Origin: Paenibacillus sp. JJ-223
GTDB taxonomy: Bacteria; Bacillota; Bacilli; Paenibacillales; Paenibacillaceae
NCBI RefSeq assembly: GCF_927798175.1
Contig: NZ_CAKMMP010000002.1
Coordinates: 558,001 to 622,000, forward strand
DNA length: 64,000 nucleotides
Reading direction: 5' to 3'
The position numbers were made by a program, and so were the translations under genes. Below are positions 2,431 through 17,327 of this stretch, in pieces; within the stretch, counting starts at the first letter, position 1, and each line of letters opens with the position of its first letter. The notes under the pieces were generated by a model, which searched no databases, was not told the DNA's origin, and saw nothing but the letters and a program-made list of their open reading frames with translations.

Positions 2431-2535
2431 AAGTCATACCCCCTCCTGCCTACACTCTTAAAACACCAATGCAGCTCATTTTGTGACAGCAGCATCAAAA
2501 ATAATACTTGGTAACATCATCAAGGCAAGTTTTAG

Positions 2536-2557
2536 AGCCATCCCTAATGGGATGGCT
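2536..2557 (-). terminator. Intrinsic terminator of the hxlR-like gene
   Basis: A perfect 9-bp stem AGCCATCCC / GGGATGGCT with a 4-base loop, 100 bases downstream of the HxlR-type gene. The T tract after it on the minus strand is weak (CTAAAACTT). The rest of 2431-2660 holds no gene. Confidence 0.55.
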
Positions 2558-2660
2558 CGGGCGCTCTTTGCATCAATTACACTTTACGTACCGTAAACCA
2601 GATGCGTTCAGATTCTGGACGCTGCCAAAATTTCCGGTTCCTTGCAAAAATTCATGAACC

Positions 2661-2996: not shown

Positions 2997-3002
2997 GTTC
3001 AC

Positions 3003-3020
3003 ACTATCCTTTCGGATAGT
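3003..3020. promoter_or_regulatory. Probable HxlR operator
   Basis: Perfect 7-bp inverted repeat ACTATCC-TTTC-GGATAGT directly upstream of the regulator start, covering its AAAGGA ribosome site. A further half-site TACTATCC lies at 3039-3046 on the side of the RidA-family gene. A separate 14-bp palindrome TTACTTTAAAGTAA lies at 3075-3088. Confidence 0.6.
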
Positions 3021-3101
3021 AGCCCACTTCTTTGTGCGTACTATCCTTTTATTTTCGCCCAGTCTATACTAGCCTTACTTTAAAGTAAAGGGGCTAAAAC
3101 A

Positions 3102-3485: not shown

Positions 3486-3490
3486 GAAAA

Positions 3491-3522
3491 AAGAGAGGAG
3501 CTTCGCTTGAAGCTCCTCTCTT
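3491..3522 (+). terminator. Strong intrinsic terminator after the RidA-family gene
   Basis: A 14-bp perfect stem (AAGAGAGGAGCTTC with its complement) around a GCTT loop, six bases after the stop codon. A-rich before and weakly T-rich after, so it could also serve the ABC-F gene approaching from the other side. Confidence 0.75.
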
Positions 3523-3570
3523 CGAATATTCGATTGTTCTTCCCGAAATCGTCTAAGCTTGTGGCGTTTG

Positions 3571-5319
3571 CTAGAGTGCAGACAGCTGCTTGATCCATCC
3601 TTCCAGCTCGTCGACCAATCCTTTTGCAAGTTCGAAATCGGTATCTTTCAAGGCCGATTCGATTTGCATTTCGACCAACTTTTTCTTTTGCTCCGTTTCC
3701 AAGTAGTCTTTATCGAAATGACTGGCATAGATCATCTGTCTGAATTTTCGCATACTCATTTTTCGAATGGTCTTATTGTCAACGATCAGCACATAATCCA
3801 TCCCGTTTACGACGGAATAGAAATCGTGCGAGACCATAACGATCGCACCTTTGTAGTCGATGATGGCTTTTTCCAGCGCGATCTGTGTATAGATGTCCAA
3901 ATGGCTCGTCGGTTCGTCAAGCAGCAGCAGGTTGGCTTGACTGGCCGCGACTTTAGCCAATTGGAGCATGTTCTTTTCTCCGCCGGACAACGATTCGATC
4001 TTCTGCTCAAGGATCTCTTCTTCGAAGCCGTAGTTCGCCAGATACGCTCTGACCTCGTCATAAGTTTTGAATCCGGCGTCGATGAATTCATGCAGGATCG
4101 TATTCGAATCTTGCAGCGTTTCGCCTTGAAGCTGAGATAGGTACGCCACTTTCGTATCCGCATGGACTCCGATCGAGTCGTGATGGTTTCGGAAGATGTC
4201 CCGCAGCAAAGTCGTTTTCCCGGTGCCGTTCGGACCGATGATCGCGACTTTATCCGTGGATTTGATCTCGAAGTTTACGTTTTCCAACAGCAGCTCGTCG
4301 AAGGACGCGCTATAATGGTCGACTTTTACAACAACTGCGTCTTCCATTTCATGCTCGATCCCGAAGCGGATATCCGGCTGCTTGATCTCGACGAACGGCG
4401 CTTTGATTCTGCGCGCTTCCAGTCTTTCTTGGAACTTGACTCTGGCTTTTAACGCTCGGCCTCTGGATGCTTCTGAATTATAAGTCGCGATCGCTCTGAG
4501 GTTGTCGATGATGTGATCGTATCGCTCGATCTCTTCTGCCTCAGCGACAGCGATCTCCTGCAGCTCGATTTTGGTCTGAAGCAGCGAGAAATGATATTCG
4601 ACATAGCTTCCGTCAAACTCTTGAATTTCCGTATTTTCCAGGTGAATGATTTTGTTGAAGCAATGGTTTAGAAGATAGCGGTTGTGCGTAACGACCAGCA
4701 GCATGCCTTTGTGGGAGTTGATCAATTTTTTGAGCGCGTTCAGATTTTCGAAGTCCAAAAATACATCGGGTTCGTCCATGATCATCAAGTCCGGATTCGT
4801 CAGCATTTCCTTCATGACTTGAATGAGTTTGAATTCCCCGCCGCTTAAGGAGGTTACGCTAACATCTTTTAACTTCGCGAGATTGGCCAGATTCAGCTTC
4901 TTATGAATGCGGCTCTCGAAATCGTCCCCGCCCATCGATTCCAAAGCGTCCAGAGTGAGTTGATATTTCTCCATCAGCGAATCCATATCCGATGTCGTCG
5001 CCATTTCGGCATAGATCACGTTGAGCTTCTCCTGAATCTTGGTAAATTCTTCACTAATATATTCAAAAACGGTCATTTCTTTCGCCGGGTCCACCTGCGA
5101 GAACTGACTGACGTAACCGATTCGGCAGTTCGGTTCGATCTCCAGCTTGCCATCGAACAAATGCTTTTCCGGGTCCATCAGAATCTCGATCAGGGTGCTT
5201 TTCCCGCTGCCGCTTGTTCCGATAAAGGCGCAGTGCTGCCCTTCTTCAAGTGTGAACGAAATGTCGGTATACAGTTCTTTTTGCGGGAACGAGAAGGATA
5301 AGTGTTCAACTTTGATCAT
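3571..5319 (-). CDS. ABC-F family ATPase (duplicated ABC cassette, no membrane domain)
   Basis: About 582 residues from the ATG at 5319 (AAAGG upstream); an in-frame extension to 5394 lacks a ribosome site. Two ATPase cassettes: first Walker A Gly-Thr-Ser-Gly-Ser-Gly-Lys-Ser at 34-41 with Leu-Ser-Gly-Gly-Glu at 158-162; second Walker A Gly-Pro-Asn-Gly-Thr-Gly-Lys-Thr-Thr at 362-370 with its own Leu-Ser-Gly-Gly-Glu. They are joined by a charged linker (about 245-325), as in ABC-F proteins that act on the ribosome (translation factors or antibiotic protection). The first Walker B reads Asp-Glu-Pro-Asp-Val-Phe-Leu-Asp in place of the usual Asp-Glu-Pro-Thr-Asn-His-Leu-Asp; the second is normal. 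I cannot tell a resistance factor from a housekeeping factor. Confidence 0.88.
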   Translation of the reverse strand: MIKVEHLSFSFPQKELYTDISFTLEEGQHCAFIGTSGSGKSTLIEILMDPEKHLFDGKLEIEPNCRIGYVSQFSQVDPAKEMTVFEYISEEFTKIQEKLNVIYAEMATTSDMDSLMEKYQLTLDALESMGGDDFESRIHKKLNLANLAKLKDVSVTSLSGGEFKLIQVMKEMLTNPDLMIMDEPDVFLDFENLNALKKLINSHKGMLLVVTHNRYLLNHCFNKIIHLENTEIQEFDGSYVEYHFSLLQTKIELQEIAVAEAEEIERYDHIIDNLRAIATYNSEASRGRALKARVKFQERLEARRIKAPFVEIKQPDIRFGIEHEMEDAVVVKVDHYSASFDELLLENVNFEIKSTDKVAIIGPNGTGKTTLLRDIFRNHHDSIGVHADTKVAYLSQLQGETLQDSNTILHEFIDAGFKTYDEVRAYLANYGFEEEILEQKIESLSGGEKNMLQLAKVAASQANLLLLDEPTSHLDIYTQIALEKAIIDYKGAIVMVSHDFYSVVNGMDYVLIVDNKTIRKMSMRKFRQMIYASHFDKDYLETEQKKKLVEMQIESALKDTDFELAKGLVDELEGWIKQLSAL

Positions 5320-5422
5320 TGTGTTACCTTTCTTGGTAGCTGAAATGGGGTTGATTAGAGGTACTGCAGAACATGAATACGGAGTCTGCCGCACCTCAGA
5401 TTAACACTGTTTACTGCCAAAT

Positions 5423-5890
5423 TCAATGCTTAGACCAAGCCATGAACGCAGCCATCGAAGCCACGTTAACGATGATTCCATCCTTTCTCTCCAGCATATC
5501 GGGCAGCAGCCGATGCGTAAGATCGACTAACGCAGCCGTATTCAGCAGAATCTCCTCCTGCTCGCGCTCCGGGTCTATTTCCTCGAAACGGCCATAAGTG
5601 CCAACGCCTGCGTTGTTGATGAGAATATCGACAGACAAGCCCAGTTCGGATATTTGTTCGGCCAGTTGACGCGGAGCATTCGCTTTGGACAAATCGCAAG
5701 CGAGTGCATAAGCCTCTACACCGTACTGGCGGTTGAATTCCCTTGCCATTGCATCCAGTTTGTCCTTGGAGCGAGCTGCCAGAACGACATGACAGCCTCG
5801 TGCCGCCAGTTCTTTGGCATACACTTTCCCGATTCCGGATGAAGCACCGGTGACTACAGCCAGCTTGTTTCGATATATATATTTGTTCAA
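5423..5890 (-). pseudogene. Truncated short-chain dehydrogenase/reductase
   Basis: The N-terminal 150 residues of a classical short-chain dehydrogenase: Thr-Gly-Ala-Ser-Ser-Gly-Ile-Gly cofactor loop at about 14-21, Asn-Asn-Ala-Gly near 91, and the Asn-Val-Ala-Ser strand with the catalytic Ser near 143. It then ends abruptly after Ala-Ala-Phe, before the Tyr-x-x-x-Lys active site and the whole C-terminal third; family members run about 250-265 residues. The TTG start with AGGAGG 9 bases upstream is intact. The missing part is not found in the 100 bases before the ABC-F gene, so a deletion probably joined the two. Unlikely to be catalytic. Confidence 0.8.
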
Positions 5891-6143
5891 GAAGCCAACC
5901 TCCTATTTAAGCGTCTCTGACGTAAATTAGCTTCATTGTACTGTCGGTGGAGAGAAGTCAACCACATCATGCTTATACTATTAGCGGGATTAACAGCCTC
6001 TGTACTCGTTATGGTTCTCTTTTGTAGAAACGGCATTCAACAGAGATTATAATAATCATATATAACGTTCTTTTGGTCCATTTGGTACTAGCAATCTGCA
6101 TCTTCCCTATAGGTAAATAGATAAGTAAATAGAGGTGACCCAC

Positions 6144-6998
6144 TTGAAAAAGAATCATTCTCCATCCGCATTGGGTGACTTCCTTAAATCGCGCAGGGAA
6201 CGGTTACAGCCTTCAGAGGCAGGGATCCAGCCGCTGCCCGGACGAAGACGTACTCCGGGTCTTCGAAGAGAAGAAGTCTCTTATCTTGCCAATATAAGCG
6301 TGACTTACTATGCCTGGCTGGAGCAAGGCAAGGAGGTTAATCCTTCGCCGGAAGTGCTGCTAAGTATCAGCAAAGCGCTTCAGCTTGACGAAGACGAGCA
6401 GAAGCATCTATTCGATCTCGCCAATGTAGATGTGGCTAGCGTCGTCACAGTGCCAAATAGCGAAGGGCCGGATACGAGAGTTTTGCAGCTAATCGTAGAT
6501 CAGCTGCATTATCCTTCTTTTATCACGGACGAAGGTACGGACGTTATCGTCTGGAATCGAGCGGCAGAACTGATCGTAGCCGATTTCGGCAGTCTGCCGG
6601 ACAACGAACGGAATATGATGGACATTATGTTTTTAAAGCCGGATTACCGCAATAGACTGGTGAACTGGGAAGGCGCTGCCCGTTACTCTGTAGCCGTTCT
6701 GCGGGCAGGCTTCGATCTATACAAGAACAACCCGTTATATATGGAAAGGTTTGAACGCTTGACGCGGGAAAGCGCGGAGTTCGTACATTTCTGGGAGTTA
6801 TATGAAATCAAACAAAAACGCGTAGCTACCGCTTTATTCCGTGTTCCTGGCGCACAGGAGATGGAGTTCGAGCTCCACTCCGCGGCTGTAATCGATAATG
6901 GCCCGGGACTGCACTGGTGTTTCTTTGTTCCGGTGCCCGGTTCAGGTACGGAGGAGAGATTACTGCGTTTACTTGAGCGGGACAGGCAGCTACCGTAG
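6144..6998 (+). CDS. XRE-family regulator with MmyB-like ligand-binding domain
   Basis: About 284 residues. N-terminal helix-turn-helix (about 10-80: Leu-Gly-Asp-Phe-Leu-Lys-Ser-Arg-Arg-Glu-Arg, then Pro-Gly-Leu-Arg-Arg-Glu-Glu-Val and Thr-Tyr-Tyr-Ala-Trp-Leu-Glu-Gln-Gly), followed by the PAS-like MmyB domain (about 110-280) with Trp-Asn-Arg-Ala-Ala-Glu and Phe-x-Pro-Asp-Tyr-Arg. The TTG at 6144 is chosen because GAGGTGA sits five bases upstream; the GTG at 6135 lies inside that ribosome site. Such regulators usually stand beside the oxidoreductase they control; here a short-chain dehydrogenase follows on the same strand and a truncated one is divergent. Confidence 0.88.
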   Translation: MKKNHSPSALGDFLKSRRERLQPSEAGIQPLPGRRRTPGLRREEVSYLANISVTYYAWLEQGKEVNPSPEVLLSISKALQLDEDEQKHLFDLANVDVASVVTVPNSEGPDTRVLQLIVDQLHYPSFITDEGTDVIVWNRAAELIVADFGSLPDNERNMMDIMFLKPDYRNRLVNWEGAARYSVAVLRAGFDLYKNNPLYMERFERLTRESAEFVHFWELYEIKQKRVATALFRVPGAQEMEFELHSAAVIDNGPGLHWCFFVPVPGSGTEERLLRLLERDRQLP

Positions 6999-7094
6999 AC
7001 TGTTACTCCCGTTAATAGAATAGACGTGCTGTGGCTAGCTCCCTCCAGTTGCTTGTATGATTCAGTGGATGACAACGATTGGAGGGTGTTTAGC

Positions 7095-7967
7095 ATGCAA
7101 ACATGGTTCATTACAGGAGCATCAGGAGGCTTGGCTTCACGTATAACTCGCCAGTTGCTTGATAGAGGGGACCGTGTAGCCGCAACGGTACGCAAGCCGG
7201 GTGTGCTGGATGATCTGCAGGCACAGTATGGCTCTGGGCTATGGCAGGCTAATCTAGATCTGACAAACTCTCAGCAAATTGCTGAAGTGGTGGAACGTGC
7301 ATTTTTAGAACTGGGCACGATCGATGTGTTTGTCAATAATGCAGCCTATGGCTTGTATGGCGCAGTGGAAGAAGCAAGCGACAGGCAAATTGAGCATCAG
7401 TTTATGACCAATGTGCTTGGCTCCCTACGTGCAGCGCGTGCAGTCCTGCCCTTTTTCCGCAAGCAGGGCGGCGGTCACATGGTACAGATTTCGAGTATGG
7501 CGGGTCATTATTCTATTCCGGGTATGGGGCTGTATTGCTCTTCGAAATGGGCGGTCGAAGGAGCCTTTGAAGCGCTGGCTAAGGAAGTGGCTCCGTTCAA
7601 TATTAAGACCACTATGGTGGAGCCCGGCGGAATCCGAACGAATTTCATTACAAGCAACGCCGTATTCGGCGAGCGGATGGACGAATACCGGGATACGGAG
7701 GCAGGCCAATTCGTTAGCCTGATGAAGGGAGAACTGCCTGGTATAGATATGAGCATGTTCAATCAAATGGTTGTCGGCGATCCGGATAAAATGGCGCAGC
7801 AGATTATCCGTCGTGTCGACCAGGGAGAGGGCCCGATACGTATGGCGTTGGGCAGTGACGCCTATGAGCAAATCCGGGCAGCCCTGCTGGACAGACTGGC
7901 CGCTCTGGAAGCACAGAAAGAGCTGGCTTACTCCACTGATTCAGATGATGTGGTAAAACCATTTTAA
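7095..7967 (+). CDS. Short-chain dehydrogenase/reductase
   Basis: A 290-residue NAD(P)-dependent oxidoreductase. Thr-Gly-Ala-Ser-Gly-Gly-Leu-Ala binds the cofactor at about 8-15, Asn-Asn-Ala-Ala follows near 85, and Ile-Ser-Ser-Met with Tyr-Cys-Ser-Ser-Lys supplies the Ser-Tyr-Lys triad. Full length for the family. The ATG at 7095 has GGAGGG 9 bases upstream; the frame is open earlier but without a ribosome site. It follows the MmyB-type regulator by 96 bases and is its most likely target. Substrate unknown. Confidence 0.9.
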   Translation: MQTWFITGASGGLASRITRQLLDRGDRVAATVRKPGVLDDLQAQYGSGLWQANLDLTNSQQIAEVVERAFLELGTIDVFVNNAAYGLYGAVEEASDRQIEHQFMTNVLGSLRAARAVLPFFRKQGGGHMVQISSMAGHYSIPGMGLYCSSKWAVEGAFEALAKEVAPFNIKTTMVEPGGIRTNFITSNAVFGERMDEYRDTEAGQFVSLMKGELPGIDMSMFNQMVVGDPDKMAQQIIRRVDQGEGPIRMALGSDAYEQIRAALLDRLAALEAQKELAYSTDSDDVVKPF

Positions 7968-8005
7968 AGGATACCAAAGCATTCGACATCCACGACAACT
8001 GATAT

Positions 8006-8058
8006 GCTCCTCTGAAGTAGCCGATTTATTTATTAACCCAGTCTACTTAAAGGGGAGC
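8006..8058 (+). terminator. Probable terminator after the dehydrogenase gene
   Basis: Imperfect long hairpin: GCTCCTCTGAAGTAG pairs with CTACTTAAAGGGGAGC across a 22-base loop, 39 bases after the stop codon, followed by TTGTTT. It lies just left of the leftmost rlmH-end repeat. Confidence 0.45.
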
Positions 8059-8075
8059 TTGTTTAGGGATTTTCG

Positions 8076-8093
8076 TTATTTGTGATACGGTTC
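8076..8093 (-). repeat. rlmH-end direct repeat, copy D (putative att site)
   Basis: Read on the minus strand, GAACCGTATCACAAATAA decodes as Glu-Pro-Tyr-His-Lys-stop, the exact C-terminus of RlmH encoded 8.8 kb away. The following inner stretch (to about 8115) is almost identical to that next to copy B at 14362-14383, including AACGGGTCTA and CGGCGAA. Confidence 0.8.
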
Positions 8094-8158
8094 AGCTTAA
8101 CGGGTCTACGGCGAATTTTAAAAGTACCCAATTAATTAAATGACCATTTAAGCAACTC

Positions 8159-8194
8159 AAAAACCGGGATTCGCCAAATAAGGTCCCGGTTTTT
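8159..8194. terminator. Bidirectional hairpin terminator
   Basis: AAAAACCGGGA pairs with TCCCGGTTTTT around a 13-14 base loop; A run before and T run after allow use on either strand. It lies 60 bases downstream of the esterase gene on the minus strand. Confidence 0.65.
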
Positions 8195-8255
8195 GACGTT
8201 CTATGTTGGGTTAATCATCTCAGATAGCAGAGGATATCTTTCTCTCCCTGATCCT

Positions 8256-9209
8256 TTATTGAAATCCATCTTTCAGCCAAGCGCTGGCTAATGCAGTAGC
8301 ACCGCGGGCGGCCAACGTATCCGCCAAAGCATTCAACATGACGAAATCATGAATGATTCCTTGATAACGCACCGTTGTGACCTCTACACCAGCTTCCCGA
8401 AGCTTATTCCCATAGGCCTCGCCTTCATCTCGAAGAACGTCGGCTTCCGCCGTAATGATGAGAGCTGGAGGAAGATCGCGAAGCTGGTCGATGGAAGCTC
8501 TCAGAGGAGAAGCATAGATTTCATTTAACTCTTCCGGTTTGTTGATGTACTGTTCCCAGAACCAAGCCATCCCGTCACGGCGAAGGAAGTATCCTTCGGC
8601 AAATTCATGATACGAGTCCGTATCCATTCCCCCATCCGTAACCGGATAGAATAGCAGCTGGCGTTTAATCGCAGGTCCCTTTCTTTCCTTAGCAATCAAC
8701 GTGATTGCCGCAGTCATGTTTCCGCCAACGCTATCGCCGCCGATGGAGATATGATCCGAATCCAGGCCATGATCCTTGCCGGAGGAAGCGATCCATTGCA
8801 GCGTAGCGTAGATCTCTTCAAGAGCTGTCGGGTATTTGACTTCGGGAGACAAGCTGTAATTAGGAAATACGATGGCCGATCCGCTTCTGACCGCTAGCTC
8901 GCGAATCAACCGATCATGAGTATGGGCATTACCGAACACCCATCCTGCACCATGTATGTACAAAACCGTTTTAAGCAGTTGGCCAGCCGTGTTCTTCGGA
9001 CGCAGGATCCGAACGGACACTTGACCGCCTGGTCCGCCTGGGATATTGAGATCCTCAATGTCTACATCTTTTTTCTTGGTATCTCCCGACTGAACTTCGT
9101 CTACCGTCGCTCTCCCCTGCTCAGGTTCAAGATGGAATAAGTAGGGCGGATTCGCAGTTGCCTCAGCAAATTGTTGTGCGGCGGACTCCAGAATAATTTT
9201 TTTGGTCAT
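8256..9209 (-). CDS. Alpha/beta hydrolase, HSL-type esterase (cytoplasmic paralogue)
   Basis: About 317 residues. Oxyanion-hole motif His-Gly-Ala-Gly-Trp near residue 92, nucleophile elbow Gly-Asp-Ser-Val-Gly-Gly near 165, acid Glu-Ala-Asp-Val-Leu-Arg near 260 and His in Ile-Ile-His-Asp-Phe near 290, as in hormone-sensitive-lipase-like carboxylesterases. No signal peptide. I take the ATG at 9209 because GAGGAG lies nine bases upstream; an ATG at 9218 abuts that site directly. A palindrome typical of OhrR-type operators sits 41-54 bases upstream. It is a close paralogue of the secreted enzyme at 9290-10552: catalytic domains match nearly throughout, including Tyr-Phe-Leu-Arg-Arg-Asp-Gly-Met. 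Confidence 0.9.
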   Translation of the reverse strand: MTKKIILESAAQQFAEATANPPYLFHLEPEQGRATVDEVQSGDTKKKDVDIEDLNIPGGPGGQVSVRILRPKNTAGQLLKTVLYIHGAGWVFGNAHTHDRLIRELAVRSGSAIVFPNYSLSPEVKYPTALEEIYATLQWIASSGKDHGLDSDHISIGGDSVGGNMTAAITLIAKERKGPAIKRQLLFYPVTDGGMDTDSYHEFAEGYFLRRDGMAWFWEQYINKPEELNEIYASPLRASIDQLRDLPPALIITAEADVLRDEGEAYGNKLREAGVEVTTVRYQGIIHDFVMLNALADTLAARGATALASAWLKDGFQ

Positions 9210-9249
9210 TTTCAACATCTCCTCATATCACATTAGTTTTAAGAAATTA

Positions 9250-9263
9250 AATTGTGCACAATT
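9250..9263. promoter_or_regulatory. OhrR/MarR-type operator upstream of esterase gene
   Basis: Perfect 14-bp palindrome AATTGTGCACAATT in an AT-rich context. The same core recurs upstream of the second esterase gene and of the ohrR-like gene. Confidence 0.65.
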
Positions 9264-9289
9264 ATTAAGGGTAAAAAAATTCGTTTCTA

Positions 9290-10552
9290 TTATTGGGACA
9301 GCCAAGAATTGGCCAACAGCATTGCTCCGCGTGCAGCATTTGTATCCTTTAAGGCATTCAACATTACAAAGTCATGAATAATGCCTTGAAAGCGTACAGC
9401 CGTTACAGGTACACCTGCTTCTCTGAGCTTGTTAGCATAGGCTTCGCCTTCATCTCGCAGGACATCCGCCTCACCAGTGATTACAAGCGCTTCCGGCAAT
9501 CCCTTTAACTGATCCTTCGTTGCACGAAGCGGTGAAGCATAGATTTCGTTTCTTTGTTTCGGATCTGTCGTATACTGATCCCAGAACCACTGCATACCAT
9601 CACGACGCAGGAAATAGCCCGTAGCGAATTGTTGATAGGAGGCGGTGTCGAATTTGGCATCCGTAACAGGGTAGAAAAGAAGCTGCTTGCTAATTTTCGG
9701 GCCTTTACGGTCTTTAGCCATCAATGTAACCGCCGCCGTCATATTGCCCCCCACACTATCTCCAGCTACTGTGATTTTCTGTGAATTCAGTCCATTATTA
9801 TTTCCATCTTTGGCCACCCATAGTAGCGCTGTGTAAATCTCCTCGATAGCAACCGGATATTTTGCTTCCGGAGAGAGATCGTAGTTCGTAAAGACTACAG
9901 CTGAGTTGGAACCAACGGCTAGCTCACGAATGAGACGTGAATGTGTCAGCTCGTCTCCAAATACCCAACCTGCTCCGTGGGTGTACAATATAACCGGCAG
10001 GTCTTTCGTTACTCCCTTCGGACGAACAATAGTAAGTGACACGCTGCCTTTTGGTCCGCCTGGAATCGTCAAATGCTGAAGATCCACGTCTGGCATTTCC
10101 ACGTCACCTGATTGTACTTGATCCACGGCTTTCCTTCCCTCTACTGGGCCGAGATCGAACAAATAAGGAGGTTTGGCAGTATCCTCGACAAACTTCTGAG
10201 CTGCCGGTTCAAGCACGACTTTATGATTAGAAGTGGTGGTGTTATTTTCCGACACCGTGGAACCGATCGAAATCTGCTTATTCTGAGCGTCGTAGACGGT
10301 CGAAACGTGTAGAGCATCCGCTAGGGTGCGAACCGGAAGATAAGTCAAGTTCTTATAGCTGATCGGCAAAACCTTGTTACCGTTCGCATCCGTAGGAGCA
10401 TATTCCGCGCCATTGACCTTAAACTTGATATCATTGTTTAAATATGCCGTGATCTTCTCTTGATGGGTTCCTGCATATACGCCGGCCGTGCCGGTAATGG
10501 TCATGCCGAGCGCCATCATGGCCACAACGGATGTTTTGAATTTGTTCTTCAT
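9290..10552 (-). CDS. Secreted alpha/beta hydrolase with N-terminal copper-amine-oxidase-type stalk domain
   Basis: 420 residues from the ATG at 10552 (GGAGAG 9 bases upstream). Signal peptide at about 1-27 (Lys-rich, then hydrophobic, Val-Tyr-Ala). Residues 35-98 look like the copper amine oxidase N-terminal or stalk domain common on secreted Paenibacillus proteins: Leu-Pro-Ile-Ser-Tyr-Lys-Asn-Leu-Thr-Tyr-Leu-Pro-Val-Arg, then Ala-Leu-His-Val. A Ser/Thr/Asn linker leads to a complete esterase domain with His-Gly-Ala-Gly-Trp, Gly-Asp-Ser-Val-Gly-Gly, Glu-Ala-Asp and Ile-Ile-His-Asp. It appears to be the exported partner of the neighbouring esterase, from a duplication plus domain gain or loss. 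An OhrR-type operator lies about 110 bases upstream. Confidence 0.9.
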   Translation of the reverse strand: MKNKFKTSVVAMMALGMTITGTAGVYAGTHQEKITAYLNNDIKFKVNGAEYAPTDANGNKVLPISYKNLTYLPVRTLADALHVSTVYDAQNKQISIGSTVSENNTTTSNHKVVLEPAAQKFVEDTAKPPYLFDLGPVEGRKAVDQVQSGDVEMPDVDLQHLTIPGGPKGSVSLTIVRPKGVTKDLPVILYTHGAGWVFGDELTHSRLIRELAVGSNSAVVFTNYDLSPEAKYPVAIEEIYTALLWVAKDGNNNGLNSQKITVAGDSVGGNMTAAVTLMAKDRKGPKISKQLLFYPVTDAKFDTASYQQFATGYFLRRDGMQWFWDQYTTDPKQRNEIYASPLRATKDQLKGLPEALVITGEADVLRDEGEAYANKLREAGVPVTAVRFQGIIHDFVMLNALKDTNAARGAMLLANSWLSQ

Positions 10553-10662
10553 TTTCGGGTTCTCTCCTTTGTTATTCCATTCATTGGTAATCATATATTG
10601 CATCAATGGCAGGCCTTTGCCGTCCAATGTAGTTATGGCCATTATTAGTTGTTAAAAATTTA

Positions 10663-10674
10663 ATTTTGCACAAT
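10663..10674. promoter_or_regulatory. OhrR/MarR-type operator upstream of secreted esterase gene
   Basis: ATTTTGCACAAT, one base off the ATTGTGCACAAT palindrome. The downstream GGGTAAAAAAA matches that after the site at 9250, so the two promoter regions are duplicated along with the genes. Confidence 0.6.
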
Positions 10675-10694
10675 CTTTACGGGTAAAAAAAAGA

Positions 10695-11333
10695 TCATAA
10701 CTTTTGCAGCTCCCAGAGAATATCCTCCGGTTCCATTCTTTTGGTAAAATCGGGATTCACATATGCGGAACGGATAACGGCGTATTCGTCAATCATGAAC
10801 GTTCCCGTCATCGGAAGCACCCAATGATCTGTCCCATTGTACTCGTGCAGATCAATATTATGGCTTAAGTACATGTCCCTCAGATAGTCAGGCACGTCAT
10901 ACAACAGGTTATATTTGGCGGCAACGATTCCCTTAGGGTCGCTGAGAACTTTAAATGACATTTCTGCTTTCTCTTGATCAGACAGTGTATAATCCGGCAA
11001 TTGTGGACTGACTGCGATAAGCTGCGCGCCTAGCGCCTGAATGTCGGGGAGAATCTCTTGGTATGCTCTTAACTGCCGATTGCAGTAAGGGCACCATCCT
11101 CCTCTGTAAAAGGTAAGGACAACGGGACCTTTTGCCAGTTCGTCGGCTAAATTTATTTGGTTCCCAAGTGAATCTGACAGTTCAAAGTCCTTGGCTTTCG
11201 TCCCGACTGGTAGCCCTGTGGCGTTCCCTCCCTCTTGAAGCTGCTGGATGACACGTTGGTGTATCGCCTGCACTTCAAAAGGGCTTGCTGCCGTAATCTT
11301 CTCTAACGCTGAAGTTAAGGTCATAGTTGACAT
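10695..11333 (-). CDS. Peroxiredoxin-like (AhpC/TSA-type) thioredoxin-fold protein
   Basis: About 212 residues. The thioredoxin-fold active site is Gly-Gly-Trp-Cys-Pro-Tyr-Cys, with Cys81 and Cys84, in the context Val-Val-Leu-Thr-Phe-Tyr-Arg-Gly-Gly-Trp typical of the AhpC/TSA-related peroxiredoxin-like family. The C-terminus has Gly-Thr-Phe-Met-Ile-Asp and Ala-Tyr-Val-Asn-Pro-Asp-Phe. Likely reduces peroxides or disulfides in the cytosol. The ATG at 11333 is preferred (GAGGTG upstream) over GTG at 11339. It follows the OhrR-type regulator by 18 bases, so the two form an operon that fits peroxide-responsive control. Confidence 0.9.
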   Translation of the reverse strand: MSTMTLTSALEKITAASPFEVQAIHQRVIQQLQEGGNATGLPVGTKAKDFELSDSLGNQINLADELAKGPVVLTFYRGGWCPYCNRQLRAYQEILPDIQALGAQLIAVSPQLPDYTLSDQEKAEMSFKVLSDPKGIVAAKYNLLYDVPDYLRDMYLSHNIDLHEYNGTDHWVLPMTGTFMIDEYAVIRSAYVNPDFTKRMEPEDILWELQKL

Positions 11334-11351
11334 GATCACACCTCGAATGGA

Positions 11352-11783
11352 TTATTTCCCGCTAGTCTGAACGACTTTCTCTACTAACTCTTTGATCGTT
11401 TTGTTTAATTCCGAGACATCTTCGATTGACATTCCGCTGGCTGAGAGGAGTTCGGATGGAATACAATCGGATTGCTCCTTAAGGGCCAACCCTTTCTCTG
11501 TGAGCAGGACCAAGACAACCCTCTCATCTTCCGTTGATCTTACTCTCCTAATCAGTTCGTTCATCTCCATCCGTTTCAGCAGCGGCGTCAAGGTGCCTGA
11601 ATCGAGGTCTAATTGTTCTCCCAGTTCTTTCACCGTCCGCCCGTTACTTTCCCAGAGGGATAGCAATACGAGATACTGAGGATAGGTAATTCCCATCTCC
11701 TCTAATAGCGGTCGATACAACCGAGAAATAGCTCGGGAGCAAGTATATAAGGAAAAGCAAAGGTGTTCGTTAAGTTGCAGCAT
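11352..11783 (-). CDS. ohrR: OhrR-type MarR-family redox regulator
   Basis: 143 residues, closely matching the Bacillus OhrR plan: Leu-Cys-Phe-x-Leu-Tyr near the N-terminus with the peroxide-sensing Cys at position 9, Ile-Thr-Tyr-Pro-Gln-Tyr-Leu, and the winged helix Leu-Asp-Ser-Gly-Thr-Leu-Thr-Pro-Leu-Leu-Lys-Arg-Met with wing Glu-Asp-Glu-Arg. OhrR represses organic-hydroperoxide defence genes until that Cys is oxidised. A second Cys at 15 follows, and another further on could allow two-Cys control. The usual partner ohr is absent; a peroxiredoxin-like gene and two esterases carry the operators instead, so the symbol indicates family rather than proven function. Confidence 0.85.
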   Translation of the reverse strand: MLQLNEHLCFSLYTCSRAISRLYRPLLEEMGITYPQYLVLLSLWESNGRTVKELGEQLDLDSGTLTPLLKRMEMNELIRRVRSTEDERVVLVLLTEKGLALKEQSDCIPSELLSASGMSIEDVSELNKTIKELVEKVVQTSGK

Positions 11784-11859
11784 GTGAGGTCAACCTCTCT
11801 ATAATGTTGATTAATGATGTGACATGTACTTCACCTCATTTTAAGTTGTTTGCAAATTA

Positions 11860-11871
11860 GTTGTGCACAAC
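11860..11871. promoter_or_regulatory. OhrR-type operator upstream of ohrR
   Basis: Perfect palindrome GTTGTGCACAAC, 77 bases before the regulator start; consistent with autorepression. Confidence 0.65.
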
Positions 11872-11913
11872 TTTTATAAGCCAATAATACATACCCCTCT
11901 CTATATTGTCAAC

Positions 11914-11938
11914 GATTTAATTTTATACAATTTAAATT
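11914..11938. promoter_or_regulatory. Second OhrR-like site
   Basis: Contains AATTTTATACAATTTAAATT, very near (from memory) to the Bacillus subtilis ohrA operator built from TACAATT/AATTGTA repeats. It lies about 137 bases upstream of ohrR. Confidence 0.5.
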
Positions 11939-12579
11939 TAGGGAATTTTTTTGAACACGTATTTCATGATAGGCGCTAGAGATGCCCGCTCAATAGTGAA
12001 GATTCCCAGGTAACGTGGCGGAGGTCACGTGCACCTAGAAGTTCGTCGAGTACTGGAAGAAGCGTGGATTTGAGATCGTGCAGAAGAATGAGGTGCGACT
12101 GATGCAGGATAGAGAAAATCATCCCGAGACTAACCTGACGTTTACCGACCAGGCCGTGAAGCTAGTCAAAATAGGAGCTGAGTGTAATTCTCGAACACCC
12201 AGGGGTTGTCCCACGCCCAGAAGACGCGGGCTATGAGGCTGTGCACGGGAAAAGATAGCTTTGATTTACTCGGTATGTACCCCAGAATGCAACTGGGACT
12301 TCTCTAAGTAAATAAGAACTCTACTTAAAGCGCTAAAATTGGACGGGCGGTTTGTTCTCCTATTCCTTTATCACCTGCCTCAATCCCTAGGATTCAACAA
12401 CACGCCGACCCCAAAAGCCCGTCGGTTGGTGCCATCTCCTTACTCGGATTCTCCACTTGGTTGACAGTGTAAAATGAAAGACAAGACAAATACCCCTTCT
12501 TGTGAAAAGGGGTAAGTTATCTTAATAAAAACCACCGGATGTTCTTTCAAGCCAGTGCTCAGAAAGTTTCAGTTCAGGA
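11939..12579. other. Gene-free stretch with probable decayed coding sequence
   Basis: No intact gene. On the plus strand, 12040-12235 reads as an uninterrupted, protein-like stretch (Phe-Val-Glu-Tyr-Trp-Lys-Lys-Arg-Gly-Phe-Glu-Ile-Val) with a stop just before it and no start or ribosome site. It looks like a fragment of a lost gene; I cannot name the family. GC content rises here compared with the AT-rich flanks. Confidence 0.35.
12488..12513 (-). terminator. Probable terminator of the spore-protein gene
   Basis: TACCCCTT and AAGGGGTA form a stem about 70 bases after the gene; on the minus strand it is followed by a T-rich run (ATTTGTCTTGTCTTT). Confidence 0.55.
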
Positions 12580-12861
12580 TTACTCCCTGTTCGCTATTTG
12601 CTCCTGAGCGAGACGGACCAATTCCCTAACCATGGAACCGCCAATTTTGCCACCGACATGGCCTGCTGATTCTGTTGTCAGTTGACCATTGTTTCCTGGG
12701 TGCAGAGGCACACCAAGCTCCTTCGCCACTTCGTATTTTACATCGTCTGGTTGATTCGGATTTACGGTATATCCTTCGCGCTTCATTACATCTGCTTTGA
12801 ACGCTTGCATTCCCTGTTCGACCCCTGGCACCGCATATTTTCTCCTTCTTCTTGCCATCAT
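12580..12861 (-). CDS. Alpha/beta-type small acid-soluble spore protein (extended N-terminus)
   Basis: 93 residues. The C-terminal two thirds show the family signature: Tyr-Glu-Val-Ala-Lys-Glu-Leu-Gly-Val near the germination protease cut site, then Gly-Asn-Asn-Gly-Gln-Leu-Thr, Ala-Gly-His-Val-Gly-Gly-Lys-Ile-Gly-Gly and Leu-Val-Arg-Leu-Ala-Gln. Such proteins coat and protect DNA in dormant spores. It is longer than the usual 60-70 residues, with a basic Arg-Arg-Arg-Arg-Lys start. Two adjacent ATGs follow GGGGAG; either could be used. Its presence inside a putative mobile cassette is unusual. Confidence 0.92.
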   Translation of the reverse strand: MMARRRRKYAVPGVEQGMQAFKADVMKREGYTVNPNQPDDVKYEVAKELGVPLHPGNNGQLTTESAGHVGGKIGGSMVRELVRLAQEQIANRE

Positions 12862-13251
12862 ACAGCACTCCCCTCGATGTTATTCCATAACATGCCCGGA
12901 AGCACAAAATTTCATCCCTATTCCCTAAAATTTATGAGTTAAATCATCATCTCCTCTTAATCTCCCGATCAAAGTACTTTTGATTCATTTACAAAAGACG
13001 AAGAAGCTGTTTTTGCACTTCTCACTTGCTGAAGAATCTGAAGCGACTGGATCAGTCGCCAAATTCAGCAGGCTATGAAACAATTGTTTTATTGACAATA
13101 GTCATTCGTAACGCATAATGCCTCAAACAGACGTTTTTAAAGATCTCAAGGCCAGGAAACAGCATTTTTCGCCCTACTTATGATACGGTTCAGCCCGCTA
13201 ACTATTACGGCAGGTTTGATAAGCCATCATTCCAGAATAAATTTGGCAGAT
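12862..13251. other. Gene-free stretch holding a putative att site
   Basis: AT-rich; no gene, promoter or hairpin that I would name, apart from rlmH-end copy C. Confidence 0.6.
13174..13191 (-). repeat. rlmH-end direct repeat, copy C (putative att site)
   Basis: Minus strand GAACCGTATCATAAGTAG reads Glu-Pro-Tyr-His-Lys-stop. The outer flank ATTTTTCGCC (13164-13173) also matches that of the real rlmH end at 16837-16846, making this the copy most like the genuine 3' end. Confidence 0.85.
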
Positions 13252-13686
13252 TTAGAGTACAACCCTGTGTTCCAATATATTTTTCAAACTGATATGAGAC
13301 TTTGAGGGACCCAGCTTTAAAAGGGAATCTTGAAATTCGGCAAGTTCCTCAATCGATGCCGTTTGTACCTTGATAAGATAATTATATTCTCCGCTTATTC
13401 GATATAAATCCGTTACTTCCCTAGCCATTTCACAAAAATCAACGATCATCTGGCAATGTTCTGTTTTGACTAGTATAAACGTAGTCATGCCCCGATTCAG
13501 ATTCTTTAAATTTAATTCTGTGGAATACCCGGAAATTATCTTCTTATCTTCAAGTTTCAAAATCCTCTCTTTAACTGAAGGTTGGGACATACTGACTTCT
13601 TTACTGATTTGAGAGATAGACATTCGTGCATTGTGTTGAAGCAGCTGCAAGATCTTTTTATCCATATCATCGATTAGATGATCCAT
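13252..13686 (-). CDS. Lrp/AsnC-family transcriptional regulator
   Basis: About 144 residues. The N-terminal helix-turn-helix (Asp-Lys-Lys-Ile-Leu-Gln-Leu-Leu, Ile-Ser-Gln-Ile-Ser-Lys-Glu-Val, Val-Lys-Glu-Arg-Ile-Leu-Lys-Leu-Glu) is followed by the C-terminal RAM domain with Ile-Ser-Gly-Glu-Tyr-Asn-Tyr-Leu-Ile-Lys. Such proteins usually sense amino acids. ATG at 13686 is chosen because GGGAG lies eight bases upstream. It is divergent from the VOC-domain gene, its likely target. AT-rich like its neighbour. Confidence 0.9.
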   Translation of the reverse strand: MDHLIDDMDKKILQLLQHNARMSISQISKEVSMSQPSVKERILKLEDKKIISGYSTELNLKNLNRGMTTFILVKTEHCQMIVDFCEMAREVTDLYRISGEYNYLIKVQTASIEELAEFQDSLLKLGPSKSHISLKNILEHRVVL

Positions 13687-13856
13687 CCCCATCACTCCCT
13701 TGAATTGAATTTTAAAAAACTAAGCCATATCCATTAAAATAGCTTATATTTAGTTACCATCCTTTCATTATATCCTCATATAACATATGTAATTCAACAA
13801 GTTAGTAGCTGTATACTATAAACAACATTCAAAATATACACAAGGAGAAATCAAGA

Positions 13857-14321
13857 ATGAGCATAAACGGTCTTTCACATGTGGCGATCCAAGCCAAAAA
13901 CTATAAAGCTACTATTACATTTTATATTGAAGTTCTAGGGTTCAAGGTTGGTCATCATTGGTCTCTGCCATCCTTTCAAATCAAAGAAGCCTCCATGCTA
14001 GTTTCACCTGACCAAAGAACCTGTATTGAGATCTTTGATAACGACGCTGTCATCCCTGCTCAAGGGAAGAAAGCATCGTCTGAAGAAGATATAACTTACG
14101 GAGCGTTATTACATTTAGCCTTCTACGTGAATAATGTGGATGAAATGTATCAAAAAGCCCTTGCTCATGGAGCAAAGGCTTTTATAGAACCGGATTACCT
14201 TTCACTTGGCGAACCCCCACTTGTAGTGAAGAATGCTGTCATTCACAGTCCCAACGGAGAAGTTATCGAATTTATTGAAGAGGTCGATTTTGATATGTCT
14301 ACCAAGACTCATGCAAATTAA
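13857..14321 (+). CDS. VOC-superfamily (glyoxalase/dioxygenase fold) protein
   Basis: 154 residues with two paired beta-alpha-beta-beta-beta halves: Leu-Ser-His-Val-Ala-Ile-Gln at 6-12 with a first metal-site His, Phe-Tyr-Ile-Glu-Val-Leu-Gly-Phe, then Leu-Leu-His-Leu-Ala-Phe near 84 and Gly-Glu-Val-Ile-Glu-Phe-Ile-Glu near 139. This gives the usual His/Glu metal ligands of glyoxalase I, fosfomycin-resistance and bleomycin-resistance relatives; the substrate cannot be told. AAGGAG lies nine bases before the ATG. Divergent from the Lrp-type regulator. Confidence 0.88.
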   Translation: MSINGLSHVAIQAKNYKATITFYIEVLGFKVGHHWSLPSFQIKEASMLVSPDQRTCIEIFDNDAVIPAQGKKASSEEDITYGALLHLAFYVNNVDEMYQKALAHGAKAFIEPDYLSLGEPPLVVKNAVIHSPNGEVIEFIEEVDFDMSTKTHAN

Positions 14322-14343
14322 GCTTTATAACGAAAACTTGCCC

Positions 14344-14361
14344 TTATTTGTGATACGGTTC
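14344..14361 (-). repeat. rlmH-end direct repeat, copy B (putative att site)
   Basis: Minus strand GAACCGTATCACAAATAA, preceded by GGT, reads Gly-Glu-Pro-Tyr-His-Lys-stop. The 18-bp core is identical to copy D. Confidence 0.85.
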
Positions 14362-14394
14362 ACCTCAACGGGTCTATCGGCGAAAAATGCGAAA

Positions 14395-14416
14395 AGGAGC
14401 TGTCGCGGCCAGCTCC
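14395..14416 (-). terminator. Hairpin, possible terminator
   Basis: GGAGCTG / CAGCTCC stem with a short loop; on the minus strand it is followed by TTTTCGC. It lies downstream of the gene fragment at 14610-14948. Confidence 0.4.
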
Positions 14417-14609
14417 CTTGTACTGTAATCAATCCAATTCGGCGCGAGAGAATAAATCCCTGATTGCTCTTGTTTGACATACGACCTGCTATAAAAATGA
14501 AACTATTGTCGCAGCTATAGCTCTTTTTTGTCTTATCCCAAGCAAATCAGGGCAAAAACATCCTGGTTACGGAAAATCCAGCTCATCATCGATGACACGG
14601 AATATCTCC

Positions 14610-14948
14610 CTATTCCGCACCGGATACCGGGCATCCAGTTCCTCCCACTGCCGCTTCGGTAAAATCAAAAAGTCGAATTTCGTATTTGTCCCGGATCAGC
14701 TCCTGAAAGCCGCGAATCGTGATATAGCGATCATTTCCGGTAAAGGTAAGCGCAATCGAATGCAGTTGTCCATTGTAGGTAACGTCCAGTCCTTTGTCCG
14801 TAGACGTCACCTCGACCGTTTCATCTGGAAGCCGTTTACCGAACAATCGGACGATCTCCTCGTCATCCTCTCCCCAATCTACAGTGACGCTGTATACAAA
14901 AGCCCATAGAAAGCCACCGAAGTAATCGGCAGCCTTATTATCGATGAT
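14610..14948 (-). pseudogene. Fragment of an unrecognised gene (5' end lost)
   Basis: An open frame of 112 codons with no usable start near its left boundary: an in-frame stop at 14949-14951 is followed by protein-like sequence (Asp-Tyr-Phe-Gly-Gly-Phe-Leu-Trp-Ala-Phe, then Leu-Pro-Asp-Glu-Thr-Val-Glu-Val, Tyr-Ile-Thr-Ile-Arg-Gly-Phe-Gln-Glu-Leu-Ile). The composition is clearly that of a folded protein, but the tail after Arg-Leu-Phe-Asp-Phe looks scrambled, perhaps a frameshift. A TTG at 14846 has no ribosome site. I do not recognise the family. Confidence 0.5.
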
Positions 14949-15294
14949 TCAACTATCGTTCCGTTAGAACTATGGAGCCATTTAACGAAATGATACCAAA
15001 AACTTTATTCGAGTTTTTTCCAACTCTGTGTGGTGGCTGATCTACCATCATCATCTTCATCATTGACTCTTCCAAGTTGTTCAAGGGGCTTTTTGTGTTC
15101 CTAGCAAAATAGTTCGTAGTAAGTAGAAGATTATGATAGCAATCTAATTTTTTATATCGTATGATTCTTCACATACAATAAGATTTTGCAATAATAAGCT
15201 TCATAATATATATCTTATTACACTTTAGGGGAATAAGGCGTACTGCGGATTATTTATATTTTCCGTACGGGAGTTTTTTCGGAATGGAGAGACT
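14949..15294. other. AT-rich promoter region of the serine hydrolase gene
   Basis: No gene. Strongly AT-rich towards 15120-15210. The ribosome site GGAGAG of the next gene is at 15284-15289. Confidence 0.5.
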
Positions 15295-16743
15295 ATGAAA
15301 AAAAATATTGTCTTTATGATTGCATTACTTATACTGTTCACCGGCTTCGCAACACCAAGTTATGCATTATCAGACTCGCAATCTGATTCAATACAAACAT
15401 TGTTGGATGATGCAAGCCGTATATCAGGTGTACCGGGAATGTCAATCTCAATACTTGCGAACAATGAAGTGCTCTACTTTTCTTCCGGGTACGCAGATCG
15501 TGAAAAGGGACTGCCAGCAAGTGAAAATACTCTATATGAGCTGGCTTCGGTAAGTAAAGCTTTTACCGGCATGGGTATTCTGCTGATGGAAGAACAAGGG
15601 CTGCTGTCAATGTCAGACCCTATCCAGAAATATTTGCCTTGGTTTACGTTAAAGTATCAGGGGAAACACGTGGATATGCAAAGTATGACACTCAATAACT
15701 TTTTACACCATACTAGCGGCTTAACAAATGGCAGTCACAGTCAAAACATTCCACAAGGCAATACGCCGGATATGTTGCAAAAAACCGTAGAAATGCTCGT
15801 AGATTCTGAATTGTCGTTCTATCCCGGTGAGCAGTATAATTACGGAACTGTTAATTATGACGTATTAGGTCTGGTTATTGAGATTGTGTCGGGACAAAGC
15901 TATGAAGACTTTATGAGGGAACAGGTATTTCAGCCGTTGGGTCTTCACCAGACGTATGTTTATAAAGAAGATGCTCAAGCCACCGGACAGTTGGCACAGG
16001 GCTACCGTTCTTCCTTTTTTATGACAACCCCATATAACGCGCCGGATTTTTCCGGGAATACACCCGCAGGCTACATCATTTCTTGTACAAAAGATATGGC
16101 GCGTTGGATGGGCATACAGATGGGTATTGTGCAGGACATACCCGAAATATTCCATACGGTTATCGAAAAATCACATCAGGGTGATATGTCTGTTCCGGCT
16201 GTCAACGAAATGTATTATGCGGCGGGCTGGTCGGTAAACGCCAACCAAACGATTATAGAGCACCCCGGGGGCAATCCCAATTTCGGAACCGAAGTGGTCA
16301 TACTGCCAAATGAACGAATAGCCATCAGCTTGCTGACCAACGGCGAAAATATCAATAGAAGCATGGTACTAAAAGTTAAAGATATATTAGATGGCAATCT
16401 GACGCAGTCATATGGAATAAGCGGCACACAGCTTTTGGACATCATTTTGTCGTCTGCCACAATTATTCTTTGCCTATTGGCTGTTCTGTTCTTTCTCTTA
16501 GGATTACGCAGAAGGAAAACGAATGAGCGGCAGCCAATGACAAAAAGGCGAATAATCGTAACAGCTATTTTGCTAATTGCTACGATTGTCCAGTGTGTAA
16601 TATGCTATGCATTAGATTGGTCAGAGATACTTATTTGGCGAACATATAGTGTTCTTACAGCTTTGATTTCGGCGGCCTTATTAACAGCAAGCATTACATG
16701 GTTTGTATACACTCACCGATATAATGCCTCGCTCCGAAAATAA
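15295..16743 (+). CDS. Membrane-anchored serine hydrolase, class C beta-lactamase/PBP fold
   Basis: 482 residues. Signal peptide about 1-24, catalytic domain about 30-370, then three membrane segments (about 385-402, 421-440, 450-470). The nucleophile motif is Ser85-Val-Ser-Lys88. The second motif reads Tyr-Gly-Thr-Val-Asn-Tyr where Tyr-x-Asn is usual. The third is His-Pro-Gly-Gly, replacing Lys-Thr-Gly as in many esterase or peptidase relatives of AmpC. It acts outside the membrane, perhaps on peptidoglycan peptides, D-amino-acid peptides or a beta-lactam; I cannot choose. It is the only intact gene of the cassette adjoining rlmH. The codon use and AT-rich sequence differ from the core genes to the right. 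Confidence 0.85.
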   Translation: MKKNIVFMIALLILFTGFATPSYALSDSQSDSIQTLLDDASRISGVPGMSISILANNEVLYFSSGYADREKGLPASENTLYELASVSKAFTGMGILLMEEQGLLSMSDPIQKYLPWFTLKYQGKHVDMQSMTLNNFLHHTSGLTNGSHSQNIPQGNTPDMLQKTVEMLVDSELSFYPGEQYNYGTVNYDVLGLVIEIVSGQSYEDFMREQVFQPLGLHQTYVYKEDAQATGQLAQGYRSSFFMTTPYNAPDFSGNTPAGYIISCTKDMARWMGIQMGIVQDIPEIFHTVIEKSHQGDMSVPAVNEMYYAAGWSVNANQTIIEHPGGNPNFGTEVVILPNERIAISLLTNGENINRSMVLKVKDILDGNLTQSYGISGTQLLDIILSSATIILCLLAVLFFLLGLRRRKTNERQPMTKRRIIVTAILLIATIVQCVICYALDWSEILIWRTYSVLTALISAALLTASITWFVYTHRYNASLRK

Positions 16744-16847
16744 GCATTTCATTCGTTCGCCTTATTGAAAAAACGCGAAGATTTCTTTTAATGAGAGAAC
16801 AATATCAGCTTAGAAGGAATGTGTCAGGCACCCCCTATTTTTCGCCG

Positions 16848-16865
16848 TCACTTATGGTAGGGTTC
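16848..16865 (-). repeat. rlmH 3' end, copy A (putative attachment site)
   Basis: The genuine last codons of rlmH, GAACCCTACCATAAGTGA (Glu-Pro-Tyr-His-Lys-stop). Three downstream copies in the same orientation match its coding content. Confidence 0.85.
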
Positions 16866-17327
16866 ACCGCGGTTAATCTTCACCGCCCGATAAATTTGCT
16901 CCACCAGCACCAGACGCATCAGCTGGTGCGGCAAGGTCATGCGCCCAAAGCTCAAACGCTGCTTCGCGCGGCGCAGCACCTCATCGGAGAGCCCATGGCT
17001 CCCTCCGATGACAAACACGACATGGCTCGTCCCGTACGTGCCGAGCTTGTCGATTTCCGCGGCCAGCTCTTCCGAGCTCCAGAGCTGGCCATCAATGGCG
17101 AGCGCGACGACATGCGCCTCGCTCTTCACATGCGCGAGGATGCGTTCGCCCTCGCGCTCTTTTACCGCCCGTACCTCTGCTTCGCTCAGGGTATCGGGCG
17201 CTTTCTCATCCGCGACCTCGATCATCTGAAATTTGATGTACGGGGCGAGGCGCTTGGCATATTCCTGAATGCCCAGCGTCAAATATTTTTCCTTCAGCTT
17301 GCCCACGCCAATAATCTGAATCAACAT
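16848..17327 (-). CDS. rlmH: 23S rRNA (pseudouridine1915-N3)-methyltransferase RlmH
   Basis: 159 residues, the standard length. It starts [15 protein letters not shown], has the SPOUT cofactor knot Phe-Val-Ile-Gly-Gly-Ser-His-Gly-Leu near 104, and ends in Arg-Gly-Glu-Pro-Tyr-His-Lys. It methylates pseudouridine 1915 in helix 69 of 23S rRNA. GGAGG precedes the ATG. In staphylococci the 3' end of this gene (orfX) is the SCC integration site; here repeats of its last codons continue downstream. Confidence 0.97.

Follow-up and report, generated by a model that had tools for sequence, protein, structure and literature searches.

What do copies of the last codons of rlmH signify when they recur, one behind the other, downstream of that gene in a Paenibacillus? 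The question is raised by a 64,000-nucleotide stretch of Paenibacillus sp. JJ-223 (C2:558001-622000, hereafter the window; source genome G000, 6.95 Mb in 46 contigs), in which a sequence-only reading had proposed three tandem cassettes resembling the staphylococcal cassette chromosome (SCC). That proposal is still the best reading and is supported by the comparisons below, but the array proves to be far longer than three intervals. We consider it very likely that the feature is a cassette-chromosome array of the type found in SCC and in the enterococcal cassette chromosome (ECC), made by Ccr-family large serine recombinases. SCC elements are described as inserted near the rlmH end by large serine recombinases, with flanks carrying degenerate inverted repeats that include the last codons, and as forming tandem composites (PMC10061031). 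ECC elements are described at the rlmH 3' end with ccrAB-type recombinases, 50-bp attachment (att) sites containing TATCATAA and inverted repeats, variable cargo, and remnants; TATCATAA is given as the att core motif of both SCC and ECC, and transfer of a 32-kb element with ccrAB was shown by experiment in Enterococcus (PMC6222049).

The three copies beyond the rlmH end (B, C, and D; Table 1) lie where the sequence-only reading had placed them, and all four window sites, the rlmH end included, encode Glu-Pro-Tyr-His-Lys-stop in the same orientation on the rlmH strand (minus). Copies B and D have, as it also said, an identical 18-bp core, GAACCGTATCACAAATAA, from which copy C differs at 3 positions and the rlmH end at 5; the window cores read TATCACAA and TATCATAA. 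With up to 3 mismatches to GAACCGTATCAYAARTAR allowed, there are exactly 4 sites in the 64-kb window, compared with a mean of 0.21 in shuffled sequence, although 1 of 100 shuffles also reached 4. The homologue of copy C in G010, a second genome of the same species, has lost one core base, which indicates that such sites decay.

Outside the window the array continues. Exact matches to the 14-base core TTRTGATACGGTTC number five in the 6.95-Mb genome (about 0.1 would be expected by chance, by our own estimate for uniform composition), all in one orientation and confined to a 57-kb part of contig C2; three of them are the copies in the window and two lie beyond it, at C2:544628 and C2:515777. A consensus scan (at least 15 of 18 positions) of C2:490001-578000 yields ten sites, each oriented like rlmH, over the 61.7 kb that separate the rlmH end from C2:513137. 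By our site matrix, eight of the ten (counting the rlmH end) are strong and two are weaker. That the core is not a widely dispersed repeat, as the sequence-only reading required, is borne out both by this distribution and by the strand and control counts given below. An ordinary dispersed repeat is ruled out, since the exact 14-base matches are confined to one 57-kb stretch, with a single near-canonical pair elsewhere. A slightly wider motif gives one further exact match in the source genome beyond the array, which we take to be the site at C1:818433. Here, far from rlmH, two near-canonical sites lie 59 bp apart (L007:1501-1580; G000 C1:818433-818505) with short inverted repeats between them, and the pair may represent a secondary site of integration or what is left of such a site.

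RlmH is present in 75 of 75 genomes of the genus, and from each we took the gene with its downstream sequence, 20 kb for most (a length that misses the far ends of long arrays) and only 1.2 and 3.9 kb for G004 and G059. Allowing at most 1 mismatch to the consensus, we count 124 sites beyond the rlmH end that point the same way as rlmH and 0 that point the opposite way, spread over 50 of the 75 genomes; in the same stretches, the counts by strand are 68 versus 0 without mismatches and 144 versus 4 with at most 2. The site matrix counts 140 versus 2, but it was trained on rlmH-direction sites only, and the plain consensus count is the unbiased version. By the matrix, extra sites number one or more in 54 of the 75 genomes, two or more in 30, and four or more in 12, with the genus maximum in G060 (14 sites counting rlmH, matrix score 13); the median interval is 3.8 kb. 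The exact 18-base motif, with rlmH's own end included, is found in 46 of the 75 genomes, whereas the reversed control has 0 matches. The slightly wider motif is found in 257 of the 295 family genomes, representing 17 of 19 genera, against 1 match for the control. In the rest of the family (251 genomes outside the genus), exact copies anywhere, including that of rlmH, occur at least once in 216 genomes, at least twice in 178, and at least three times in 119. A lengthened version of the site is present at 119 or more loci in named genomes; the hosts among the matches listed are Paenibacillus, Cohnella, Fontibacillus, Saccharibacillus, one unclassified member of the Paenibacillaceae, and two records labelled Bacillus, and tblastn places 44 of the matches listed at an rlmH end and 79 elsewhere. 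In G677, G523, G608, and similar family genomes, 13 to 18 exact sites lie on both contig strands.

Among the sites, the arms are variable and the core is constant. The outer flank ATTTTTCGCC, which the sequence-only reading saw at both copy C and the rlmH end, is real and is one arm of a perfect 11-bp terminal inverted repeat of the first interval (cassette 1). Of 146 intervals, 27 pass a terminal-repeat score that 0.7% of shuffles reach. The core has a different right half in G006, G037, and G062, which changes the C terminus of RlmH from HK to RL or RF (EPYRL/EPYRF), from which we infer that crossover would take place within or to the left of GAACCGTATC. The same three genomes also have a short RlmH-like gene downstream of rlmH (G006, L142:14040-14441; G062, C5:640520; G037, C1:6598338) that is about 31 to 32% identical to it; PF02590 was confirmed for the G006 gene.

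Between genomes, homology breaks off at the core. Defining a shared flank as at least 70 bp of at least 75% identity beginning at the core, we found 62 pairs of non-rlmH sites, not independent of one another, that share one or more flanks; 54 pairs share one flank only and 8 share both, so that homology generally stops at the core. Comparison of filled with empty sites gave 14 cases, which represent 12 different inserts, and two inserts lie away from rlmH on both sides. An open Ccr-like gene with its N-terminal serine motif is contained in a 6.6-kb insert of G055, whose counterpart site is empty in G019, and in a 19.2-kb insert of G065, whose counterpart is empty in G063, and in the 11.7-kb insert of G008 (empty in G025) the Ccr-like gene is truncated at its N terminus and is without the motif. 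In G013, 1.9 kb sits between rlmH and a flank that is found directly at rlmH in the window's genome. Turnover is also seen within one species, between G000 and G010, which are 92 to 99% identical (mostly 98 to 99%) over the aligned parts of the array, with divergence setting in at or inside the cores at C2:541713, C2:515773, and C2:513137. A 2.9-kb cassette (C2:541713-544624) that encodes a major facilitator superfamily transporter and a GntR/MocR-type regulator is absent from that place in G010. The junction polymorphism that the sequence-only reading called for is therefore present at cores, both between these two genomes and between species, but not in the three window intervals themselves, which both G000 and G010 have. 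When whole cassettes are compared, the 139 cassettes yield only 11 multi-member families, and five of these families come from the G000/G010 pair; cassette sharing is thus better seen from single genes. A cassette common to G031 and G047 is 96.4% identical, compared with 80.9% for rlmH; we did not use it as a case of clean unit transfer, since homology begins at the left core and has no clean end at the right.

Which enzyme could have made these junctions is indicated by the congeners. The seven best CcrB-family matches of the genus (249 to 431 bits), which come from G006, G008, G015 (two), G055, G062, and G065, are all located downstream of rlmH at a distance of no more than about 8 kb; the next best match (207 bits) is on another contig. 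The search of the window's own genome that the sequence-only reading had proposed, for CcrA/B/C-type recombinases, finds none; Ccr-type enzymes are encoded immediately downstream of rlmH in six congeners. The Ccr-like genes are on the strand opposite to rlmH. In G015, a ccr-ccr-radC-cch block comprises two Ccr-like genes, RadC, and a Cch-like helicase (DUF927/HTH_56); the DUF927 protein has the Cch helix-turn-helix domain and is homologous to the helicase of PDB 5dgk, which we take to be that of SCCmec. Judged by site, by enzyme family, and, in G015, by helicase, the recombinase-bearing elements of the congeners are of the SCC/ECC kind. Beyond the genus, in a class-wide set of 398 genomes, 33 of the 38 CcrB-family matches of 260 to 900 bits that share a contig with rlmH are within 35 kb downstream of it, 14 of these 33 within 400 bp, in contrast to 2 of the 23 weaker matches; the 260-bit line was drawn after the scores had been seen, and the class list held matches with E up to 1e-60. 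In a tree of 58 rows, the seven array-region recombinases are spread over several lineages, interspersed with recombinases of other Bacilli, which suggests that such recombinases arrived repeatedly, although several long branches meet in this tree and support for separating the other genus recombinases is weak (73/94). In G055, G006, and G062, the Ccr-like reading frame crosses the core; the frames of G006 (L142:46-2154) and G062 pass through the core into the antisense strand of rlmH as open frames of 702 or 691 residues.

The array probably arose as follows. A Ccr-family large serine recombinase would join the site in the last codons of rlmH (core GAACCGTATCAYAARTRA) to its counterpart on a circular element. 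With each insertion, the rlmH end would be re-created on one side and a second copy of the site left on the other, which would produce tandem stacking with every site in the rlmH direction. Elements that bear a recombinase would bring in cassettes and, when the enzyme is expressed, could excise them, and cassettes without a recombinase may be carried along or served in trans. Recombinase genes would later be lost, perhaps by excision, leaving recombinase-free arrays such as that of the window; some arrays may still be active today.

Several observations weigh against this explanation. Genome searches find no PF07508 or CcrB-family match in G000 or G010 and no PF00239 match in G000, and a serine recombinase hidden in the window's genome was rejected on these negative results. 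The array of G000, a genome with no serine recombinase detectable by Pfam, is accordingly recombinase-free, and mobility there would have to be provided in trans or be a past event. Across the genus, only 5 of 75 genomes have by rlmH a Ccr-like gene that is open and retains the N-terminal serine motif, and in one further genome, G008, the gene is truncated. Ccr-like remnants are present in at least seven genomes, where they adjoin a site (G005, G021, G046, G047, and at least three others), but carriers are far fewer than the 54 genomes with extra sites. The enzymes are also distant from the defined types: scores do not exceed 431 bits, against an NCBIfam equivalog cutoff of 900 for CcrB that is passed in 0 of the 75 genus genomes, and G015 is below every cutoff (CcrB, 431 of 900 bits; CcrC, 339 of 900; Cch1, 210 of 700). 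The G015 block, the most SCC-like of all, has no second site in the 20 kb taken. Terminal repeats fall below the score in 119 of the 146 intervals, two of the three window intervals among them (cassettes 2 and 3 score 6.5, under the line of 9). In 12 of the 14 filled-empty cases, rlmH is the left flank and the right flank alone is informative, and the insertion at C2:541713-544624 is not fully clean, as about 90 to 100 bp past the rlmH-side core is also replaced.

The scarcity of recombinase genes invites an integron-like reading, in which a recombinase of another class (e.g., a tyrosine recombinase) builds small cassettes on the same sites and Ccr-like elements would simply be among those that use the hot spot. 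In most genomes that have an extra site there is no Ccr-like gene, intervals are small (the median given above), and cargo open reading frames (ORFs) are biased to the rlmH direction, all of which this reading would accommodate: 121 of 174 mechanically called ORFs follow rlmH (53 intervals in 22 genomes, among L105-L173). However, the same cores bound inserts with Ccr-like genes and recombinase-free cassettes alike, and Ccr-like remnants abut the rlmH site where there is no open gene, e.g., in G021 and G047. On searches that covered serine recombinases, we regard it as quite improbable. We regard as very improbable a reading in which the rlmH-end copies are an ordinary substrate for homologous recombination, or duplicated rlmH fragments, and turnover reflects general recombination at a hot spot without a site-specific enzyme. 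The lack of a serine recombinase in the window's genome would fit, as would longer duplicated pieces of the rlmH 3' end that are found at a second place in G053 (C1:5866126-5866332), G041 (C1:3341951-3342040), and G017 (C146:192-584). These pieces look as if an element may have carried part of another strain's rlmH, and that of G017 could be an assembly effect. However, unlike sites share only the ~18-bp core and short arms, a length too short for efficient homologous recombination; homology ends at the core in 54 of the 62 flank-sharing pairs; and Ccr-family genes adjoin the site in six congeners. The idea that the copies are coincidental, or kept as protein-coding sequence, can be dismissed with near certainty: allowing 2 mismatches, the 14-base core does have 92 genome-wide matches against 83 for the control, but all 5 exact matches lie within the array, and the strand and control counts (124 versus 0; 0 control matches in 75 genomes and 1 in 295) refute it.

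A cassette-chromosome array made by Ccr-family enzymes thus remains our reading, and the window contains three of its cassettes and the start of a fourth interval (Table 1).

Table 1. Coordinates of rlmH, att sites, terminal repeats, cassettes, and cargo genes in the window
Feature	Position	Strand	Remarks
rlmH	16848..17327	-	159-aa ORF, C terminus EPYHK; its final codons serve as the chromosomal attachment site
att site 0 (rlmH end)	16848..16865	-	GAACCCTACCATAAGTGA; matrix score 32.4
att site 1 (copy D)	14344..14361	-	GAACCGTATCACAAATAA; matrix score 40.1; also in same-species genome G010
att site 2 (copy C)	13174..13191	-	GAACCGTATCATAAGTAG; matrix score 36.6
att site 3 (copy B)	8076..8093	-	GAACCGTATCACAAATAA; matrix score 34.4; also in G010
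Cassette 1	14362..16847		2.5 kb, between sites 0 and 1; one serine-hydrolase (beta-lactamase-fold) gene
Terminal inverted repeat of cassette 1, rlmH-proximal arm	16837..16847		ATTTTTCGCCG on +; score 11
Terminal inverted repeat of cassette 1, distal arm	14378..14388		CGGCGAAAAAT on +; 11/11 complementary, score 11
Beta-lactamase-fold serine hydrolase, cassette 1	15295..16743	+	482 aa; PF00144, 1.9e-63
Cassette 2	13192..14343		1.2 kb, between sites 1 and 2; glyoxalase-fold protein and Lrp/AsnC regulator
Glyoxalase/bleomycin-resistance-fold protein, cassette 2	13857..14321	+	PF00903, 8.8e-12
Lrp/AsnC regulator, cassette 2	13252..13695	-	PF13404, PF01037
Cassette 3	8094..13173		5.1 kb, between sites 2 and 3; the five cargo genes below
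Alpha/beta hydrolase, cassette 3	8256..9218	-	PF07859, 2e-68
Alpha/beta hydrolase with N-terminal extension, cassette 3	9290..10642	-	PF07859, 9.1e-68
AhpC/TSA peroxiredoxin, cassette 3	10695..11339	-	PF00578, 5.2e-25
MarR-family regulator, cassette 3	11352..11783	-	PF01047, 2.3e-19
Alpha/beta-type small acid-soluble spore protein, cassette 3	12580..12861	-	PF00269, 7.3e-18
Start of next array interval	1..8075		leaves the window; weak site C2:549470, strong site C2:547752

Four of the seven window cargo genes compared, a set that leaves out the spore-protein gene of cassette 3, recur at 60% identity or more downstream of rlmH in another species, each in one species only. The cassette 1 serine hydrolase has a 90% identical copy in this position in G013, its sole other species, and a hydrolase, the peroxiredoxin, and the MarR regulator of cassette 3 have copies of 87 to 91% identity there in G018. 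Six genes of the interval that leaves the window also have counterparts downstream of rlmH in other species, G071, G007, and G013 among them, with 89 to 97% identity. Cargo families were tallied for 133 of the 174 mechanical ORFs, from 16 of the 22 genomes: several match PADLOC defence families (mad3, mad8, type I restriction subunits, and PtuA), and others are TetR regulators, dehydrogenases, and transporters. Antisense to rlmH itself, a 194-codon open frame (window:16791-17375, + strand) is probably a by-product of codon usage.

The array resembles SCC in its insertion site at the rlmH end, its TATCATAA-type core, its tandem units, and, in congeners, its Ccr and Cch homologues. It differs in its core, which is GAACCGTATCAYAARTRA here, whereas the staphylococcal core has the form GAAGC...; in congener Ccr-like enzymes that score far under the equivalog cutoff; and in having up to 14 sites per genome (G060), mostly small intervals, and no serine recombinase in the window's genome. 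SCC-like units that are without ccr genes are known as pseudo-SCC. As the window array has no recombinase, a defining feature, it is best filed as a tandem array of recombinase-free, pseudo-SCC-like cassettes. With ECC, the array shares the rlmH 3' end, TATCATAA sites, variable cargo, and recombinase remnants, but its units are many, small, and mostly without a recombinase, and they are known from sequence alone. Integron cassette arrays are similar in their rows of small, site-bounded units beside one attachment site and in a one-way bias of cargo, and they differ in enzyme family and site structure.

The sequence-only reading knew of no such array in Paenibacillus-like bacteria, and this claim fails, because an SCC-like island of Paenibacillus pinistramenti was mentioned as a tandem composite in 2023, among Bacillota islands with polymerase and single-stranded-DNA-binding protein (Pol-SSB) pairs (PMC10061031). 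That island shares the genus name and the site with the array described here; within the available text, it is a single example in a study of primases, with no array survey, no recombinase-free array, and no comparison of Paenibacillus strains. The kind of element, and even the genus, are thus already on record (PMC6222049 and PMC10061031). In the literature searched, we found no description of the array length, the recombinase-free state, the strain-level turnover, or the family-wide spread of sites, and no survey of such arrays in the Paenibacillaceae.

A family with hundreds of sites and with small cassettes that vary between species offers material on how cassettes are born, how they move without a recombinase of their own, and how SCC originated, and the predicted sites make the Ccr-like enzymes easy to assay in hosts that are harmless. 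We put forward tentatively, as a possibility that we rate at somewhat under even, that the Paenibacillaceae keep an integron-like reservoir beside rlmH, in which small recombinase-free cassettes, in long rows between rlmH-end sites, would be put together and rearranged in trans by Ccr-type recombinases that arrive on autonomous elements and are then lost, with SCC and ECC as special cases of a Bacilli-wide system. If this is true, the SCC machinery that brought methicillin resistance to staphylococci would represent a single branch within a far broader system.

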